DNA of 50,726 nt from positions 1 through 50,726 of IMG/VR virus record IMGVR_UViG_3300037234_000187; one strand, written 5' to 3'. The stretch comes from a virus. Positions 1-42,813 of the stretch are shown here, piece by piece. How positions within the stretch are numbered: the first letter of the stretch is position 1; each line of letters begins with the position of its first letter. Below the pieces are notes generated by a model. It saw only the letters and a list, made by a program, of their open reading frames with translations. It was not told where the DNA came from and searched no databases. The translations under genes were made by a program, and so were the position numbers.

Positions 1-81
1 ATTTGTTGTTTTTTATTTAGATAAATATTCAATTAGTTTCTCCAGTTTTTAAATGCCTAACGGCATAGCCAATTAACAAAC
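1..81 (-). other. Probable 5' part of a fourth, truncated integron cassette
   Basis: On the minus strand this stretch follows directly after the R' core (GTTAGCG) of the leftmost attC site, so by position it is the leading edge of the next cassette. It holds a short hairpin (ATGCC-TAAC-GGCAT, about 54-67) and a GGAG followed by a TTG in a reading frame that stays open to the window edge. No protein can be judged from this length. The assignment rests on position only. Confidence 0.35.
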
Positions 82-137
82 GCTAACAACACCTAAAAAC
101 AAGCCTACGGCCTGTGTTTAGCTGCCAAGCGTTAGGG
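81..137 (-). repeat. attC-like site 1 (integron recombination site)
   Basis: Read on the minus strand, it starts with a CCCTAAC core (R''), continues with a GC and TTGGCAGC segment, and forms an imperfect stem (CTAAACACAGGCC-GTA-GGCTTGTTTTTAG). It ends with the GTTAGCG core (R'). This is the layout of integron attC sites: inverted AAC...GTT cores around a foldable, poorly conserved centre. It lies just after the stop codon of cassette ORF 1. Positions 84-134 are identical, base for base, to 635-685 in attC site 3. Confidence 0.85.
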
Positions 138-320
138 TTAATAACCCTGCCAATGCCAACCATCTGGTTCTTTTCCTGTTGTATGATACACCCAGTAGGC
201 TTTTAATGTGTTTCTATAGGTTTCATCGTCATCCTGCGTAAACACCCAATCTAAAGTAACTAATGGTATTTCAGTCAAAAAGAAGAAAATCCCCGCAAAA
301 AATCTTATTTTCTTTCTCAT
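138..320 (-). CDS. Integron cassette ORF 1: small hypothetical protein, possible membrane anchor
   Basis: Encodes 60 aa. The basic N terminus (MRKK) is followed by a hydrophobic run of about 15 residues (IRFFAGIFFFLTEIPL), which could be a signal anchor. The remainder is polar and rich in Trp and Tyr (ends DGWHWQGY). A GAGGAATTT Shine-Dalgarno precedes the ATG. The gene occupies one cassette almost edge to edge between attC sites 1 and 2, as is usual for integron cassettes. I see no promoter of its own, so it is probably expressed by read-through from the leftward phage operon. I do not recognise the family. Confidence 0.75.
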   Translation of the reverse strand: MRKKIRFFAGIFFFLTEIPLVTLDWVFTQDDDETYRNTLKAYWVYHTTGKEPDGWHWQGY

Positions 321-345
321 AAATTCCTCGTTAAAAATTTACTAA

Positions 346-425
346 CCCTAACAACACCTAAAAACAATTTGCCTCAATCCGATTATGGGGTACTGCAAAC
401 TGTGCCTAGCTGCCCAGCGTTATGT
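346..425 (-). repeat. attC-like site 2
   Basis: About 80 nt, longer than sites 1 and 3. It has cores ACATAAC (R'', minus strand, overlapping the stop of cassette ORF 2) and GTTAGGG (R'). The outer parts match the other sites (AACAACACCTAAAAACAA on the plus strand, GCTGCC-CAGCGTTA at the far end), while the centre is a different, longer foldable segment. The GTTAGGGTT on its R' side is the exact complement of the AACCCTAAC at R'' of site 1, as expected for two ends of one cassette. Confidence 0.85.
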
Positions 426-605
426 GCAATTCTGATTTAGTGCTTTGCATATTAATTCTGCATCTTCTTTTTCAAACGCTTCGCAAACTGGCTTTTTCCA
501 ATAATCACCATAAGTCTCCTTACCTTCTTTAGTGTCAACTACCGTATATTCAAAACAGCAATGGCTAGACGAACTTTCTTCTAATATTATATATCTTTCA
601 GTCAT
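420..605 (-). CDS. Integron cassette ORF 2: small hypothetical protein
   Basis: Encodes 61 aa, soluble and acidic, with a Cys pair (HCCFEY) and a Trp-Lys-Lys-Pro segment near the middle. AAAGG lies seven bases before the ATG. The stop codon lies inside the R'' core of attC site 2, which is common in compact integron cassettes. No family recognised. It shows no similarity to the flanking phage genes that I can see, consistent with acquisition as a cassette. Confidence 0.75.
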   Translation of the reverse strand: MTERYIILEESSSSHCCFEYTVVDTKEGKETYGDYWKKPVCEAFEKEDAELICKALNQNCT

Positions 606-631
606 TGATTACCTTTATTTTAATGAACTGC

Positions 632-688
632 ACATAACAACACCTAAAAACAAGCCTACGGCCTGTGTTTAGCTGCCAAGCGTTATGG
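632..688 (-). repeat. attC-like site 3
   Basis: Same architecture and length as site 1, with 51 identical consecutive bases, but different outermost core bases: ...CCATAAC at R'' and GTTATGT at R' (minus strand). R' of this site (GTTATGTGCA) is the exact complement of R'' of site 2 (TGCACATAAC). The identity of the internal part and divergence of the cassette-specific core bases is what recombination within one attC family produces. Confidence 0.85.
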
Positions 689-689
689 T

Positions 690-857
690 TTATTTCCCCA
701 ATGCTTTTAAACTACTAACAATAGGAACTAATGCCCTAAGTAGTTGCTTGTCTTTTTCTAAAGATTCCTTCAATTCTTTTGGGTAATGCTTATTTATTAC
801 AATTTCCCTTGCCATACAACGCAATCTATCTACGGCATCATCTACATCTATTTTCAT
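690..857 (-). CDS. Integron cassette ORF 3: small helical hypothetical protein
   Basis: Encodes 55 aa from the ATG at 857, which is preceded by GAGGATACT; an in-frame TTG at 881 would add eight residues but has no ribosome binding site. The protein is predicted mostly helical and charged (DDAVDRLRCMAREI near the N terminus, KELKESLEKDKQLLRAL in the middle). It contains no membrane segment. It fills the third cassette, between attC site 3 and the half site beside the thioredoxin gene. Function unknown. Confidence 0.72.
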   Translation of the reverse strand: MKIDVDDAVDRLRCMAREIVINKHYPKELKESLEKDKQLLRALVPIVSSLKALGK

Positions 858-882
858 AGTATCCTCAATTACGCCCAACAAA

Positions 883-925
883 CCATAACAGCACCTAAAA
901 ACAATACTTCGTACTGTTCCTAGGT
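883..925 (-). repeat. Half attC-like site at the phage/cassette junction
   Basis: On the minus strand this has an intact R' side (AGGTGCTGTTATGG) and an attC-like hairpin, ACCTAGGAACAGTAC-GAA-GTATTGTTTTTAGGT, which pairs throughout if G-T pairs are allowed. The outer R''/L'' half seen in the other three sites is missing: the sequence runs into AT-rich DNA after the thioredoxin stop. R' (GTTATGGTTT) is the exact complement of R'' of attC site 3 (AAACCATAAC). It is either a decayed attC or the point where the first cassette entered the phage. Confidence 0.65.
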
Positions 926-934
926 ATTAATATA

Positions 935-1201
935 CTAACTACTCATCGCTTTGGCAAGGTTTAAATAGGTTATCTTCTGTTGGGTACCGACTAGGTGTTG
1001 GTCTTCCCTACCATCTGCTTGAAAAACCACCACGGGTATTGAGCTTATACCGACCTCAGCTATCAGATCCTCGTACATTCCCGGGTGGTCGATGTCTACG
1101 TTGATGTAGTCTGCCCCAACCTCCTTGGACACAGACTGGAGCAAAGGCTCCACCATGTGACAGGGCTGGCACCACTCGGCACCTAATTTAATTATTTTCA
1201 T
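935..1201 (-). CDS. Thioredoxin-like protein
   Basis: Encodes 88 aa, shorter than E. coli thioredoxin (about 108) but with the core fold marks: the redox motif WCQPC at residues 10-14 and the cis-proline segment SSIPVVVF near residue 55. Its start overlaps the stop of the exonuclease gene by four bases (ATGA), so it belongs to the phage operon and not to the cassette array. It probably reduces disulfides. Since T7 DNA polymerase uses thioredoxin as a processivity factor and this phage has its own family A polymerase, a similar use is possible but unproven. Confidence 0.85.
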   Translation of the reverse strand: MKIIKLGAEWCQPCHMVEPLLQSVSKEVGADYINVDIDHPGMYEDLIAEVGISSIPVVVFQADGREDQHLVGTQQKITYLNLAKAMSS

Positions 1202-7838: not shown

Positions 7839-7863
7839 TTGTTCTCCTTTAAGTTTAATTAGT

Positions 7864-7947
7864 AGAGGATGTAGGATTCGAACCTACGGTGACTTTCGCC
7901 ACGCTTAGTTAGCAACCAAGTGCAATAAACCACTCTGCCAATCCTCT
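7864..7947 (-). tRNA. tRNA-Ser (anticodon GCT)
   Basis: The acceptor strands AGAGGAT/ATCCTCT pair perfectly. The anticodon loop TTGCTAA gives GCT, and there is a long variable arm (CGTGGCGAAAGTCACC), as in serine tRNAs. The T arm is GTAGG-TTCGAAT-CCTAC. No CCA is encoded. It probably supplements AGC/AGT decoding. Confidence 0.93.
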
Positions 7948-7954
7948 GTGTTGG

Positions 7955-7996
7955 CCACCCACCGTGGTCCGCATTGTTAAGAGGCGTGGTGGGTGG
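7955..7996 (-). terminator. Long hairpin between the 109-aa gene and tRNA-Ser
   Basis: A perfect 9-bp inverted repeat (CCACCCACC/GGTGGGTGG) with a 24-base loop. No T tract follows, so it is not a standard intrinsic terminator. It may be a processing signal for the tRNA transcript or a messenger-stabilising hairpin. Confidence 0.45.
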
Positions 7997-8002
7997 ACTT
8001 GT

Positions 8003-8332
8003 TTAATATGTACAGTTGTATACGAATTCCCGAACTGGGCTTTTGAGGTGAGTTAAGTTGAAGTTGGTGAATGTATGTCCCACCATTCCGCAGATTGCTA
8101 CTTTGTCTGTATCATTGGCATTTTTATGCTCCCGATACATCCGTGCAGCCTCCTGTCGTTTCCCTTCGACATAGCTTTGGGATTCCTCGAAGACTGTACG
8201 TTCAGCATTTTGCATAGCTTTACCTATTGTCTTCTTTTGGTGAACTCCTAGCCAACCTGCACCGTAAGACATCCCAATAGTTACAGTCAAAAATCCGATA
8301 AGTAATAGTATTCCGATTAGTGTGTTTTTCAT
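8003..8332 (-). CDS. Small membrane-anchored protein (109 aa)
   Basis: An N-terminal hydrophobic segment, about residues 3-27 (LIGILLLIGFLTVTIGMSYGAG), follows MKNT and acts as a signal anchor. A charged helical region follows and two Cys lie in the C half (AICGMVG and VYNCTY). It could be an inner-membrane lysis or exclusion factor, but no family is recognisable. It lies eight bases after the lipoprotein gene. Confidence 0.65.
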   Translation of the reverse strand: MKNTLIGILLLIGFLTVTIGMSYGAGWLGVHQKKTIGKAMQNAERTVFEESQSYVEGKRQEAARMYREHKNANDTDKVAICGMVGHTFTNFNLTHLKSPVREFVYNCTY

Positions 8333-8340
8333 TCTAAATC

Positions 8341-8838
8341 CTAATGTAATGGGAAGGGGGATACAATAATTTCTGGCTCTACATACACTGGTCGTGCTTT
8401 GCCGGTCTTCGGATCAATTAATAGTAACCAAGTAGCTGATAATCCTTCTGGCATAAATAGCCCATTGGGTTCTGCTTGTGGCATCGAATGGTATCCGTAA
8501 CCAGATTGATACGTTCTCTTTTCTGGGTTACTAAATTGTGTAGAGTAAGGTAACCCGTATCCAATAGATTTACCCAGGAATTGCCCAACTTTACCCGTGT
8601 TGCGATTGAATAGATATGCGTAGCAGATTAAGTCTTCACTGTCACGTAGTTCAAGGATAGCCTTCATTGTTTTCTTCTCTTGGAAGTTTACAATTGCAGG
8701 GTATCCTATCTGTTTAACTGCTTCAGACATGGCCATCTCCGTCTTTCTCTGCATCTTTTTGTCTGCAGAGGCTTCGATTTTGCCGCAGCTTGACAAAGCC
8801 AGTATTGTGAGAGTTAGTAATAGTATTAATTTTTTCAT
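8341..8838 (-). CDS. Putative lipoprotein
   Basis: Encodes 165 aa. MKKLILLLTLTILALSSCGK is a signal peptide with lipobox LSSC, so Cys18 is the likely lipidated residue. The mature part carries a conserved-looking core (LICYAYLFNRNTGKVG, then PNGLFMPEGLSATWLLLIDPKTGK and a VYVEPEIIVSPFPL ending). I believe this occurs in other phages and in Gram-negative bacteria, though its function is unknown to me. Possible roles are superinfection exclusion or envelope modification. At 165 aa it is too long and too globular for a typical o-spanin. Confidence 0.75.
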   Translation of the reverse strand: MKKLILLLTLTILALSSCGKIEASADKKMQRKTEMAMSEAVKQIGYPAIVNFQEKKTMKAILELRDSEDLICYAYLFNRNTGKVGQFLGKSIGYGLPYSTQFSNPEKRTYQSGYGYHSMPQAEPNGLFMPEGLSATWLLLIDPKTGKARPVYVEPEIIVSPFPLH

Positions 8839-8871
8839 TTGTTTTGTTCCTTATTGTTTTGTTAATGTAAA

Positions 8872-8944
8872 TCCAGTAGCCGAGACTCGAACTCGAATTA
8901 TCGGCTTCACAGGCCGAGGTTCTAACCAATTGAACTACTACGGG
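8872..8944 (-). tRNA. tRNA-His (anticodon GTG), unusual acceptor
   Basis: The D arm (GTTC/GAAC), anticodon arm (TCGGC-CTGTGAA-GCCGA, anticodon GTG) and T arm (TCGAG-TTCGAGT-CTCGG) are all intact. The acceptor stem pairs CCCGTAG with CTACTGG and contains one C-T mismatch. The usual G at -1 opposite C73 of histidine tRNAs is absent (C at -1, A at the discriminator position). No CCA is encoded. Confidence 0.8.
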
Positions 8945-8952
8945 GTTGAAAT

Positions 8953-9171
8953 TTATAGCGTTACTTCGTCACTGATCTCTCGGAACCCATGCCATGATTC
9001 CGTGTCACCTTGAGATAATTCATAGGTTATCCCGTTCTCACGTAGGGTTATACTTGTCACCATTCTTTTCTTGTTGTCACCATCCGTCTTTAGATAAACT
9101 ATGTCATTCAGCTGGAACTGAAGTTGATAGACACCTGTGTTTAGAATGATGTCTGCGACACCTTTACTCAC
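8953..9171 (-). CDS. Hypothetical protein (72 aa)
   Basis: GTG start overlapping the end of the preceding gene by eight bases. The sequence looks beta-rich and compact (YQLQFQLNDIVYLKT, then GITYELSQGD). It is like small barrel proteins common in phage early regions. Function unknown. Confidence 0.6.
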   Translation of the reverse strand: MSKGVADIILNTGVYQLQFQLNDIVYLKTDGDNKKRMVTSITLRENGITYELSQGDTESWHGFREISDEVTL

Positions 9172-9391
9172 AAAGCTTCGCGAAGTTGTCTACGAACTTT
9201 TCAGCCTTACGCTTTTCTTCAGTAGCTGAGTCACGAATAATCGTGGCACTGTTAATGATACTTTCTTGGGCATCTGCGATGTTGGCATTTTGATCTGCCA
9301 CTTCTTGGAATTGACCTGTGAAACTGTCTACCAAGTCAGCTACTGTTTTTCGCTTGGCTGGTACATCTTCTGTGATTTTCTTTTTGAACAT
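9164..9391 (-). CDS. Hypothetical coiled-coil protein (75 aa)
   Basis: The start is the ATG at 9391, preceded by AAAGGAG. An upstream extension would run into tRNA-Gln. The protein (MFKKKITEDVPAKR...) is mostly helical, with heptad-like spacing from about residue 20 on. No family recognised. Confidence 0.65.
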   Translation of the reverse strand: MFKKKITEDVPAKRKTVADLVDSFTGQFQEVADQNANIADAQESIINSATIIRDSATEEKRKAEKFVDNFAKLCE

Positions 9392-9423
9392 CTCTGCTCT
9401 CCTTTGTTTGTTGTAAATTATAA

Positions 9424-9496
9424 CAGACCCCAGTGGGCTCGAACCACTGACCTGCAGAATCAAAATCTGCTGTTCTACCAACTGAACTAGAGGTCT
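9424..9496 (-). tRNA. tRNA-Gln (anticodon TTG)
   Basis: The acceptor AGACCTC pairs with GGGGTCT (with wobble). The anticodon arm is GCAGA-TTTTGAT-TCTGC, giving TTG. The T arm is AGTGG-TTCGAGC-CCACT. All arms are well formed. No CCA is encoded. Confidence 0.93.
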
Positions 9497-29596: not shown

Positions 29597-30765
29597 TTTT
29601 TCTTTTTCTTCTTCTTAATGTCCACTACCGACCCAGGGGACGGTTTGTATGTTCTGCGATCCACTAGGACTACCGATGACTTTCTACCCGAATTAGTGTC
29701 CGAGAAGGTTACCTCCGATATCATATAGTTATCGAGTGATTTCCATTTATCTACTGCTAAGGTAGCTATGGAATTGATTTGGAACGGCCTGTACACACTC
29801 GCCTGCCGTTCTAATTTTGTGAACCATCCAGGTACGGACACTGTAAACGAGGCAGATTGACCATTACGGACTTGCGCCTCCCAGTTGACCCTATCCTGGA
29901 CCACAGCCTTGGATACATTACTCTCAATCTGAAACACTTTAGGTCGATATCTCTTTACATTAAGGTCTTTAGCTTTGGCATTCAATGTGGTTGTACCTTT
30001 CCCCCACTTCTGACCTTTCCCTGAAACTTGACCATAGCAGGTGTAGTCCGAAAATTTATAATTATCACTGCGTGTCCGACTAACCGAGTACAGGTTTACC
30101 CCATATGTGAAATGTACACCCGGTGATTGATCCCACTGAGCATTCTCTAATAATAGATTTCCGAATTGATCAGACAATAGCATCACACCACGGGCTTTAG
30201 CTGCACGGGATAAAATAGCTGCAGGTGTCTCATCTGGACGCGCCACAAATTCTTTAAATGGTTGACTATGTTGCGCAGCTGTTCCAGTTACGAAGATATC
30301 GAAAGGCTTACATAAATCTTGTGCAATTTTATATAGTGTGGCATTTCGCCACTCATACCTAGGTACATCCACCGAGCATTGGGTTAGGTCGATTGTCTTA
30401 TCTGCTGCGGCTACGGACATTGTCCAGCCACCCTCCGTGATATTGTCACTCACACCTACAACCCACCCAGTCATCATAGGTGCTTCAGCTTTTTGTGAGA
30501 ATTGGGCTGTTCCATCGAATGGAGCTAGTGGATCAGTTTTAAACGAGTCTTCACTAATTACGGATACCTGAAAACTAGCACCATCGACAATATCGAAGGT
30601 GTTTTCACGATTGTTATCGCCCACTGCAATATTAAGACTGGCAGTACCTACTAGACTATCCATAGATCTGGTGATCTCTAAACTGGTCCATTCCCTAAAT
30701 ACAGAACCATCTATGGTTACAATTACATCGGAGTTATTGGGGAAAAATTCTTCATACATTGACAA
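29593..30765 (-). CDS. Baseplate hub protein, Mu gp44-like
   Basis: Encodes 390 aa. VIVTIDGSVFREWTSLEITRS at the N terminus, SVAAADKTIDLTQCSV, then LYKIAQDLCKPF and VARPDETPAAILSRAAKARGVML are the landmarks of gp44/gpD-type hub proteins. The C terminus ends in VVDIKKKKKKK, an odd run of seven lysines. It overlaps the downstream spike gene by four bases (ATGA). Confidence 0.85.
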   Translation of the reverse strand: MSMYEEFFPNNSDVIVTIDGSVFREWTSLEITRSMDSLVGTASLNIAVGDNNRENTFDIVDGASFQVSVISEDSFKTDPLAPFDGTAQFSQKAEAPMMTGWVVGVSDNITEGGWTMSVAAADKTIDLTQCSVDVPRYEWRNATLYKIAQDLCKPFDIFVTGTAAQHSQPFKEFVARPDETPAAILSRAAKARGVMLLSDQFGNLLLENAQWDQSPGVHFTYGVNLYSVSRTRSDNYKFSDYTCYGQVSGKGQKWGKGTTTLNAKAKDLNVKRYRPKVFQIESNVSKAVVQDRVNWEAQVRNGQSASFTVSVPGWFTKLERQASVYRPFQINSIATLAVDKWKSLDNYMISEVTFSDTNSGRKSSVVLVDRRTYKPSPGSVVDIKKKKKKK

Positions 30766-31921
30766 GCACCCTCAGTTCAACACCTGCGGCTAGAAACCCA
30801 GGATAGTCAATTTTGTTGGAGGCTACAATATTGGCAATTGGATCGATATTACCATATATCCCGTAGGTGTAGTCTAGAATATTTGATACATTTAATGGGG
30901 CCACGTTCTTCTGTTGGGACAAACGGATACTTACCAAATCTAAATGTTCATTCACGGCATATCGTGCGTCACGTATGGATGAAGTAGTTTGGACAGAAGT
31001 ATTGTCATTACCCTCAAGTTCAGCCAAGGTATCATTAATTGTAGTTCGCGTACTGTCAGCCTCTGCTGTAGTCAAGAATGACATCTGGGTAACTACACCA
31101 ACAGCAGCAGAAGCCGCTATGAAGGTCTGGAAATCTTGGATAGCCTTAGCTAATGACCATCTAGGGTCCGAATATTTTTTAGATAATTCAATTAGCTCAT
31201 TGAATCTGTTTCGTATTTGATCTGGGCTGAGTTGAGACAGTCTCTCCTCAGTAGATCCGAAATCCATTAGGTTGATGATCGACCCTATAATATCTTCAAT
31301 AGTGTACTTTAGCTCAATACCTTTACCGATAGAGTTGTATATTTCCCTCTTAAACTCTTCAGCATCTGCTACCGTTTGTCGAACCTTGCGAACTTGGTCA
31401 ATACCATTATTAAATACTTTCTGGGCATCACGAATATACTGGGCTGGTTTTTTATCACGGGTGTAGATATCATTAAGATTGTCAGTTGCAGAACTAATCA
31501 TGGCCTTTTTAGCACCCTGAACTTTAGCCTCAGCCGAAATAGCTCTCCATGTAGTAATCGTTCTTTCTTCAGTTAAAGTAATGGAGAATGTCAACATCCC
31601 GCCATCCACAGAAGTGTTTGTGAAAGTGTACTGTCCAGCACGGGCTGAATAGATACCCTTAAACGGATGATTGAAGGTTCCTGGGCCTTTACGGTCAAAA
31701 GCTTTTTGAAGCTTGTCCCACTGGTCTAGATAGTCATCACCGACCAAATACCCACTAATCTGCCAAGAGTTATACATTTTCCCAACATCTTCATTCACCA
31801 CAGCATCCCTACCGGGCATCAAATGGTTGTTAACCCTTCGGCCACCTCCATCCTGAATGTCCGTGAAGAAGAACCTTACTTTCCTAAATGATGCTGATTT
31901 TATCTCGTCTTTCCAACTCAT
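30752..31921 (-). CDS. DNA circulation/tail protein, Mu gp43-like
   Basis: Encodes 389 aa from the ATG at 31921, one base after the tape measure stop. The N terminus MSWKDEIKSASFRKVRFFF and the region MYNSWQISGYLVGDDYLDQWDKLQKAFDRKGPGTFNHPF (residues about 52-90) are the DNA_circ_N family. It is a structural component joining tape measure and hub. The middle and C regions are helical. It overlaps the hub gene by 14 bases. Confidence 0.85.
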   Translation of the reverse strand: MSWKDEIKSASFRKVRFFFTDIQDGGGRRVNNHLMPGRDAVVNEDVGKMYNSWQISGYLVGDDYLDQWDKLQKAFDRKGPGTFNHPFKGIYSARAGQYTFTNTSVDGGMLTFSITLTEERTITTWRAISAEAKVQGAKKAMISSATDNLNDIYTRDKKPAQYIRDAQKVFNNGIDQVRKVRQTVADAEEFKREIYNSIGKGIELKYTIEDIIGSIINLMDFGSTEERLSQLSPDQIRNRFNELIELSKKYSDPRWSLAKAIQDFQTFIAASAAVGVVTQMSFLTTAEADSTRTTINDTLAELEGNDNTSVQTTSSIRDARYAVNEHLDLVSIRLSQQKNVAPLNVSNILDYTYGIYGNIDPIANIVASNKIDYPGFLAAGVELRVLVNV

Positions 31922-42739: not shown

Positions 42740-42813
42740 TCTACATGGATGGACTCGAACCACCGATTTCCTGGCCCCAAACCAGGCGACTTACCAGACT
42801 AGCCTACACGTAG
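42740..42813 (-). tRNA. tRNA-Pro (anticodon TGG)
   Basis: Acceptor strands CTACGTG/CATGTAG. Anticodon arm CCTGG-TTTGGGG-CCAGG gives TGG. The T arm is GGTGG-TTCGAGT-CCATC. It is isolated from the other tRNAs, between terminase and gpW genes in the late operon. No CCA is encoded. Confidence 0.92.

Follow-up and report, generated by a model that had tools for sequence, protein, structure and literature searches.

A phage gene cassette array with integron-like anatomy and the probable phage-encoded platform behind it

Phages are mosaic, and the movement of their small accessory genes is mostly ascribed to illegitimate or homologous recombination. At the left end of the linear virus record IMGVR_UViG_3300037234_000187 (50,726 bases, analyzed over its full length and hereafter called the window), three small ORFs stand in tandem, each followed by a site resembling attC. 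We asked whether these are mobile gene cassettes and, if so, which enzyme would move them.

The array at the left end of the window

The window phage is contractile-tailed, with genes for a lambda-type portal, the terminase large subunit, the tail sheath, and the tape measure, and we found no close relative among GenBank phages. The array follows a minus-strand operon whose last genes encode an exonuclease and a thioredoxin-like protein (Table 1). Three sites and three complete cassettes could be read directly, which upholds the sequence-only reading of mobile gene cassettes arrayed in tandem in a phage. The contig end falls within a further, cut cassette: the R'' of cassette 0 (...CAAACGCTAAC) is without its GTTAGCGTTTG partner in the contig, so that cassette 0 is truncated. 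Rfam models matched nothing at the array, and distant BLAST searches of the array against phages and plasmids returned no significant match.

Table 1. Features of the array and its flank in window positions. R2, covariance model of the window sites; R3, model of the window sites plus those of the Bacteroidota genome G617.
Feature	Positions	Strand	Details
Cassette 0, cut	1..131	+ (site direction)	gene lies beyond the left contig end; terminates with site 1
attC-like site 1	81..137	+	CGCTAAC...GCGTTAGGG; core G|TTA at 131/132; R3 60.1 bits, site 1 itself being a member of R3 by construction
Cassette 1	132..419	+	own R boxes 131-144 and 339-352; inverted repeat I2; 10 pairs, A/G mismatch at 11, 3 pairs
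Cassette 1 ORF	138..320	-	60 aa; possible N-terminal membrane/signal segment; stop 9 nt before site core
attC-like site 2	346..425	+	core G|TTA at 419/420; R3 52.6 bits
Cassette 2	420..682	+	own R boxes 419-432 and 625-638; inverted repeat I3
Cassette 2 ORF	420..605	-	61 aa; phrog_19733, phrog_34012; stop codon within site TAAC
attC-like site 3	632..688	+	core G|TTA at 682/683; R3 61.6 bits
Cassette 3	683..930	+	own R boxes 682-694 and 877-889; inverted repeat I7
Cassette 3 ORF	690..857	-	55 aa from ATG; stop 9 nt before site core
Site 4, distal, degraded	883..935	+	left arm TAACAGCACCTAAAAACA and hairpin retained, R' end (CGTTA) lost; family D1; R2 12.2 bits
Flanking gene, thioredoxin/glutaredoxin-like	935..1201	-	Pfam Thioredoxin E 4e-10; same direction as cassette ORFs

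The GCTGCC-N3-CGTTA block that had been noticed at the three sites was indeed found there, at 121, 409, and 672, and is absent from the rest of the record. Sites 1 to 3 have the sequence TAACAACACCTAAAAACA..TAGCTGCC-N-AGCGTTA in common and contain TAACAACACCTA, for which site 4 has TAACAGCACCTA. The inner part is identical in sites 1 and 3, while the central stem of site 2 is longer and different. All of them are predicted to fold as hairpins and sit at gene ends.

The R boxes of each complete cassette are complementary to one another, and the complementary sequences differ from one cassette to the next. This complementarity had been recognized correctly as the mark of cassettes; it is exact and slightly longer than first described, since 10 nt are paired, position 11 is mismatched (A vs G), and two to three further pairs follow in three of three cassettes (GTTAGGGTTA-A-TAA / GTTAGGGTTA-G-TAA; GTTATGTGCA-A-TTC / GTTATGTGCA-G-TTC; GTTATGGTTT-A-TT / GTTATGGTTT-G-TT). 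A search for 10-nt own-R pairs in the whole window found the three array pairs and one elsewhere, compared to a mean of 0.82 and a maximum of 4 in shuffles; by itself, this count is only modestly above chance. A tandem trio, however, with each pair exactly at a repeated site and with the same mismatch, is beyond chance.

The TAACAA..GCGTTA ends of the sites set the plus strand as the canonical top strand, and all three minus-strand ORFs therefore oppose the site direction. They have Shine-Dalgarno-like leaders, and their stops fall 9 nt ahead of the site core in cassettes 1 and 3 and within the site in cassette 2. The view of each cassette as an ORF plus its site is correct in that three ORFs lie between the sites, but their orientation is reversed. 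In terms of the classical integron, the G|TTRRRY-like core and the complementarity of own R' and R'' were found in three of three cassettes, whereas the classical gene orientation, read from Pc with the sites, was found in none of them. The ORFs of cassettes 1 and 3 match no known family, and that of cassette 2 belongs to a small phage protein family of unknown function with relatives of 68-71% identity in two viral contigs (L022 and L023).

Site 4 marks the boundary between the array and the phage operon. The array is A+T-rich (GC 0.36 vs 0.43 for the whole window contig) and joins the phage genes within a few bases. An assembly chimera was considered, but the distal site has the arm of the family described below, so the junction looks like a true boundary. 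Among relatives retrieved via MCP and exonuclease, G002 alone is collinear with the window phage. It carries a C5 DNA methyltransferase (L024, 2-817, minus strand) after the exonuclease, at the place where the window has the thioredoxin-like gene and the array, and its contig then ends.

Elsewhere in the window, Rfam models identified four tRNA genes within 7863-9496 and 42740-42813 (-). A match to the abiF RNA family at 7957-7993 on the minus strand (40.8 bits, gathering cut-off 37) is flanked by a tRNA gene at 7863-7947 and an ORF at 8003-8332. In a phage, an RNA of this kind could be connected with an Abi-type defence gene or serve as a decoy.

A site type distinct from canonical attC

In order to compare the window sites with known attC sites, we used the covariance model R1, for which the arms of genuine attC sites, 16 in all, were taken from Vibrio, Shewanella, a class 1 integron, and the Tetrasphaera phage TJE1. 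R1 recovers attC sites held out of training at 19-37 bits. With filters off, it scored none of the window sites above chance, R1 being a small, home-made model distinct from that of IntegronFinder. In canonical attC sites, the spacers measure 3 nt, the outer L stem 5 bp, and one base is extrahelical; in the window sites, the spacer is asymmetric and there is a symmetric C.C mismatch. The sites are thus attC-like in their hairpins and G|TTA cores, as had been claimed, but they are not canonical attC. Together with the ORFs running against the site direction, the failure of R1 to recognize them argues against mere capture of a bacterial array by a phage.

A comparison with marine gammaproteobacterial integrons, which the sequence-only reading had proposed, led nowhere: R2 found no match over 321 Gammaproteobacteria, and the relatives are phage contigs and one Bacteroidota array. 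Over 345 Bacteroidota genomes, R2 detected an array in one (G617), and a pattern search over 394 Bacteroidota genomes gave a true match in the same genome alone. Its 3.7-kb contig (L036) carries four sites of the form TAACAGCACCTAAA..TTTAGCTGCCGAACGTTA, the fourth of which is also recovered by R3, and cassettes with R boxes of their own (GTTATACATA/TATGTATAAC and GTTATGTGTA/TACACATAAC). Unlike in the phage arrays, the two ORF-bearing cassettes (a membrane protein and a methyltransferase) read in site direction. We found no integron integrase above the family cut-off in this draft genome, and a 370-aa recombinase was rejected as a partner of the array, as it lies on another contig with no array near. 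Two other patterns were discarded: the TAACAACACCTAAAAACA pattern gave two chance matches in viral contigs, both within one phage gene, and CCTAAA..TAGCTGCC..GCGTTA gave five matches in genome contigs, all by chance. In another Bacteroidota genome (G530), a single related hairpin, TAACAAAACCTAAACTGC..GCAGTTTAGCCAAATCGTTA, is located between two genes (L037, ~1501-1552).

The site type, which the window sites fit, is TAACRRCACCTA..TAGCTGC-N2-A-N-CGTTA with a C.C mismatch. A scan of IMG/VR with a pattern made from this type returned 114 stretches, and more than 100 viral contigs carry such sites. AAC followed by two bases stands directly before 81 of the 87 matches in 80 listed loci (AACAG in 67); as the pattern did not ask for this motif, most matches are real. 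At least one site was found under a relaxed rule in 109 of the 114 loci. Across 88 distinct sites, the stems covary strongly, with 94% and 91% Watson-Crick pairs vs 41% and 32% expected, and the C.C mismatch within them is invariant. The large proteins of the site-bearing contigs match phage portal, terminase, primase/helicase, and methyltransferase families. An antisense gene ends at 74 of the 87 sites: its stop lies within TAAC or ahead of the site, at a median distance of 9 nt. At 71 of the 87, another gene starts after the site.

A linked recombinase, an attI-like site, and traces of exchange

A tyrosine recombinase (PF00589) was present in 10 of 41 full site-bearing or related records. 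Seven of these enzymes constitute one family of ~277 aa encoded close to a site (0.5-1.5 kb as read from the coordinates); the other three lie 8-18 kb away. In the family, the catalytic R, K, HxxR, H, and Y are all aligned and the C terminus is SPL as in IntI, without the IntI-specific insert. Family enzymes reach 155-172 bits with TIGR02249 (cut-off 265), and the nearest model is XerA/integron-integrase with 198-206 bits, below its cut-off of 220. The closest solved relatives by sequence profile are XerA/XerC/XerD and IntI4 (PDB 5hxy, 4a8e, 1a0p, 2a3v; XerA E 1.3e-49, IntI4 1.2e-46), from which the family differs in being phage-coded, ~277 aa in length, and linked to cassette arrays.

To avoid circularity, we repeated the search from the recombinase alone and obtained 74 loci, 73 of which are clear relatives, with portal and terminase as phage hallmarks in the family. 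Under a structural rule for sites (YAAC, a stem of at least 9 of 10, CGTTR), the 73 loci contain 160 sites; 152 lie upstream of the recombinase and in antisense orientation to it, and shuffled sequence gave one. This bias held even though the loci offered more sequence downstream of the recombinase than upstream. Its binomial p of 1e-88 is overstated because it counts sites as independent and includes duplicate contigs, but the direction is not in doubt. Seventeen of the 73 loci have no generic site, and some of these have little upstream sequence. The window sites themselves fall short of the 9-of-10 stem threshold and satisfy the rule only when it is relaxed to 8 of 10. Read in site direction, the arrangement matches the classical integron order, with the recombinase antisense at the 5' end and the cassettes next. 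The recombinase is also carried by a viral contig of 212,632 bases (L203), and the system is therefore not limited to small phages.

We searched for attI candidates at the recombinase loci as the complement of the R'' of the first site and obtained 51 candidates. A core is located at the 5' end of the recombinase in 36 of the 51 loci, 35 times at 50-111 nt and once at -3, where the alignment start is uncertain. This attI-like core reads TACATATAATA|GTTA, and the first cassette starts behind TACATATAATA or a comparable motif. Of the remaining 15 candidates, most follow attC-like ends and look like sites that were missed by the structural rule. Eight contigs with a 100% identical recombinase and nearly identical attI have four different first cassettes; the change falls exactly at TACATATAATA|GTTA, and shared cassettes are reordered. 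Judged from sequence, such attI switching and reordering is the pattern that attI-directed insertion and shuffling would be predicted to leave.

Exchange is also visible within the arrays. The same 485-bp cassette occurs in three contigs (L054, L079, and L118), each time with a different neighbour on either side, and both breakpoints lie at C|GTTA; shared cassettes overall measure ~450-490 bp. L083 and L107 have another cassette in common with different neighbours, and L107 and L088 have 577 bp in common, starting at the core. Cassettes that are always fixed in related phages, without exchange, had been named as an argument against mobility; in the family, as distinct from the window's own three cassettes, exchange was found. 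The R-box signature recurs as well. Own complementarity has a mean of 7.5 nt and a mode of 10 for adjacent cassettes vs 4.4 for other pairs, 37 of 45 cassettes have A/G at position 11, where 2% match, and positions 12-15 match in 76-87%. These family data come nearly all from metagenomic contigs, some of which are duplicates of one phage, and some rules were tuned during the work.

In recombinase-linked arrays, where the median cassette length is 551 bp, the ORF is antisense in 62 cassettes and sense in 3, and 12 have no clear ORF, as judged from simple ORF calls. Among the cargo are six N6/N4 and two C5 DNA methyltransferases, an MT-A70 protein, a glycosyltransferase-like protein, and many small unknown proteins; none of the window cassette genes turned up in the arrays of the family. 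Numerous cassette ORFs start within the site before them, and their translation crosses the core (L190 1884-2090, the L104 region, L129 4464-5165, and others), with a common N terminus such as ...PSFLGAVM or ...FAKPMLxA. The site may thereby supply a start codon to whichever gene comes next.

One isolate, the Polaribacter phage Leef_1, has a related integrase (34% identical), three structural sites upstream and antisense, and an attI-like core 54 nt from the integrase start (GCGTATATAGGGGC|GTTAGC). Its cassettes bear the same signature (GTTGGTAACA-A-TTA / GTTGGTAACA-G-TTA; GTTGGCAGTA-A-TTA / GTTGGCAGTA-G-TTA). Those who described Leef_1 interpreted the integrase as indicating a temperate lifestyle and left integrons unmentioned (PMC8776804). 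In a further Polaribacter phage, P12002L, the hairpins TAACAATGGCTAAA..TTTAGCCGTAGCCGTTA and TAACACCACCTAAAAAAC (L020, ~29994-30060 and ~30909-30970) resemble the family site type more than canonical attC. Leef_1, G617, and P12002L point to Bacteroidota, which are probably the hosts of the metagenomic contigs and of the window phage.

For the window phage itself, tblastn of family recombinases on the contig found none, nor was a recombinase found in its sole relative G002, which is also a fragment. The statement that the phage has no integrase cannot be made, however, since the contig breaks off within the array at the end that bears the recombinase in related phages. Given the leftward transcription, the recombinase is expected left of position 1; its presence beyond the contig end is a prediction, and we infer that the window phage has or had such an enzyme.

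A probable phage-encoded platform and its alternatives

The window agrees with the family in R-box signature, site type, ORF orientation, and stop positions. At the sequence level, cassette anatomy, covarying hairpins, exact exchange junctions, an attI-like position, and recombinase-site linkage are established. We consider it likely that the window array belongs to this family of integron-like phage platforms and works as they would. The array would then be the distal part of a phage-encoded platform whose recombinase and attI are situated just beyond position 1. Small promoterless genes would be carried on cassettes that each end in a hairpin site acting as attC, and the ~277-aa XerA/IntI-like tyrosine recombinase, coded beside the attI-like site, would cut at G|TTA and insert, excise, and reorder cassettes. 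The enzyme is presumably the catalyst and would act on folded single strands. As the cassette genes face the recombinase and run against the site direction, they would be read by the phage operon, and their cargo may help to counter host defence.

The main competing explanation is that the phage captured part of a chromosomal integron from a bacterium (Bacteroidota) and that a host IntI would be what moves it, if anything does; this would make it a phage CALIN. The Bacteroidota genome G617 does have sites of the same type with cassette-own R boxes, and IntI1 has been shown to act on attC sites from phages, among them one of a Polaribacter phage (PMC9892861). We nevertheless regard this origin as unlikely: the sites do not fit R1, the single true match among 394 Bacteroidota genomes is in a genome without an integron integrase above the cut-off, and its two ORF cassettes are sense, whereas the phage cassettes are reversed (62 to 3) and tightly linked to a recombinase family of their own.

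Ordinary terminator or regulatory hairpins, repeated between genes of an operon whose "cassettes" are immobile, would also fold at gene ends and lie a median of 9 nt from ORF ends. They predict neither a cassette-specific 10-nt complementarity nor exact swaps at G|TTA nor an attI-like start beside a recombinase; this explanation is already contradicted at the family level, and we hold it to be very improbable. We regard homologous recombination between similar sites, with the recombinase serving lysogeny only, as equally improbable. Conserved stretches common to the sites could make some junctions in this way, and the Leef_1 enzyme has been interpreted as a lysogeny integrase (PMC8776804). Yet first cassettes switch at |GTTA although attI (TACATATAATA) and the attC-like ends have nearly no sequence in common, and R boxes that match within a cassette and differ between cassettes fit site-specific recombination of circles rather than homologous exchange.

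The spread of cassettes by phages is not new as such. Qi et al. (2023) described integrons and integrase-less cassette clusters (CALINs) in phages, including virulent ones, and showed that IntI1 recombined phage attC sites (PMC9892861), so the new route that had been suggested was already known. Similar to our family, their phages, both virulent and temperate, carry attC cassettes with DNA methyltransferase cargo, and P12002L is one of their examples. In contrast, those elements are parts of bacterial integrons acquired by phages and tested with IntI1, and the report is without a dedicated insert-less phage recombinase, an adjoining phage attI, or systematic gene reversal (PMC9892861). The sedentary chromosomal integrons of Vibrio and Shewanella (L014 and L016) have the integrase antisense at one end, attI, hairpin-ended cassettes, R''/R' complementarity, and the G|TT core in common with the family. 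They differ in the IntI insert, the single extrahelical base in one attC arm, the 3/3-nt spacers, and genes oriented with the sites; the phage family has the C.C mismatch, ~1/5-nt spacers, 10-nt R boxes mismatched at position 11, and genes against the sites. In Treponema integrons (PMC3607928), recombinase and cassette genes are likewise transcribed in one direction, but there intI points toward attI with the cassettes beyond, while in the phage family the genes point toward the recombinase.

Overall, it is likely that many phages, probably of Bacteroidota, own an integron independent of bacterial integrons. It would consist of a XerA-like recombinase without the IntI insert, an attI, and reversed small genes, many of them for DNA methyltransferases, swapped between phages at attI and attC-like hairpins. 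In the open-licence literature, we came across no description of a phage platform having an attI and an IntI-insert-less recombinase of its own. While phage cassettes themselves are known, a phage platform that combines a dedicated recombinase with an attI and reversed genes appears to be new. Since the isolated phage Leef_1 appears to carry the system, it can be tested. With regard to integron origins, an insert-less recombinase that seemingly uses folded attC-like sites would test the need for the IntI insert in hairpin recognition. If true, the platform would provide a defined catalogue of phage accessory genes for screening. A dedicated site-specific cassette system of phages would explain the fast turnover of their small genes, including methyltransferases able to shield phage DNA from restriction.
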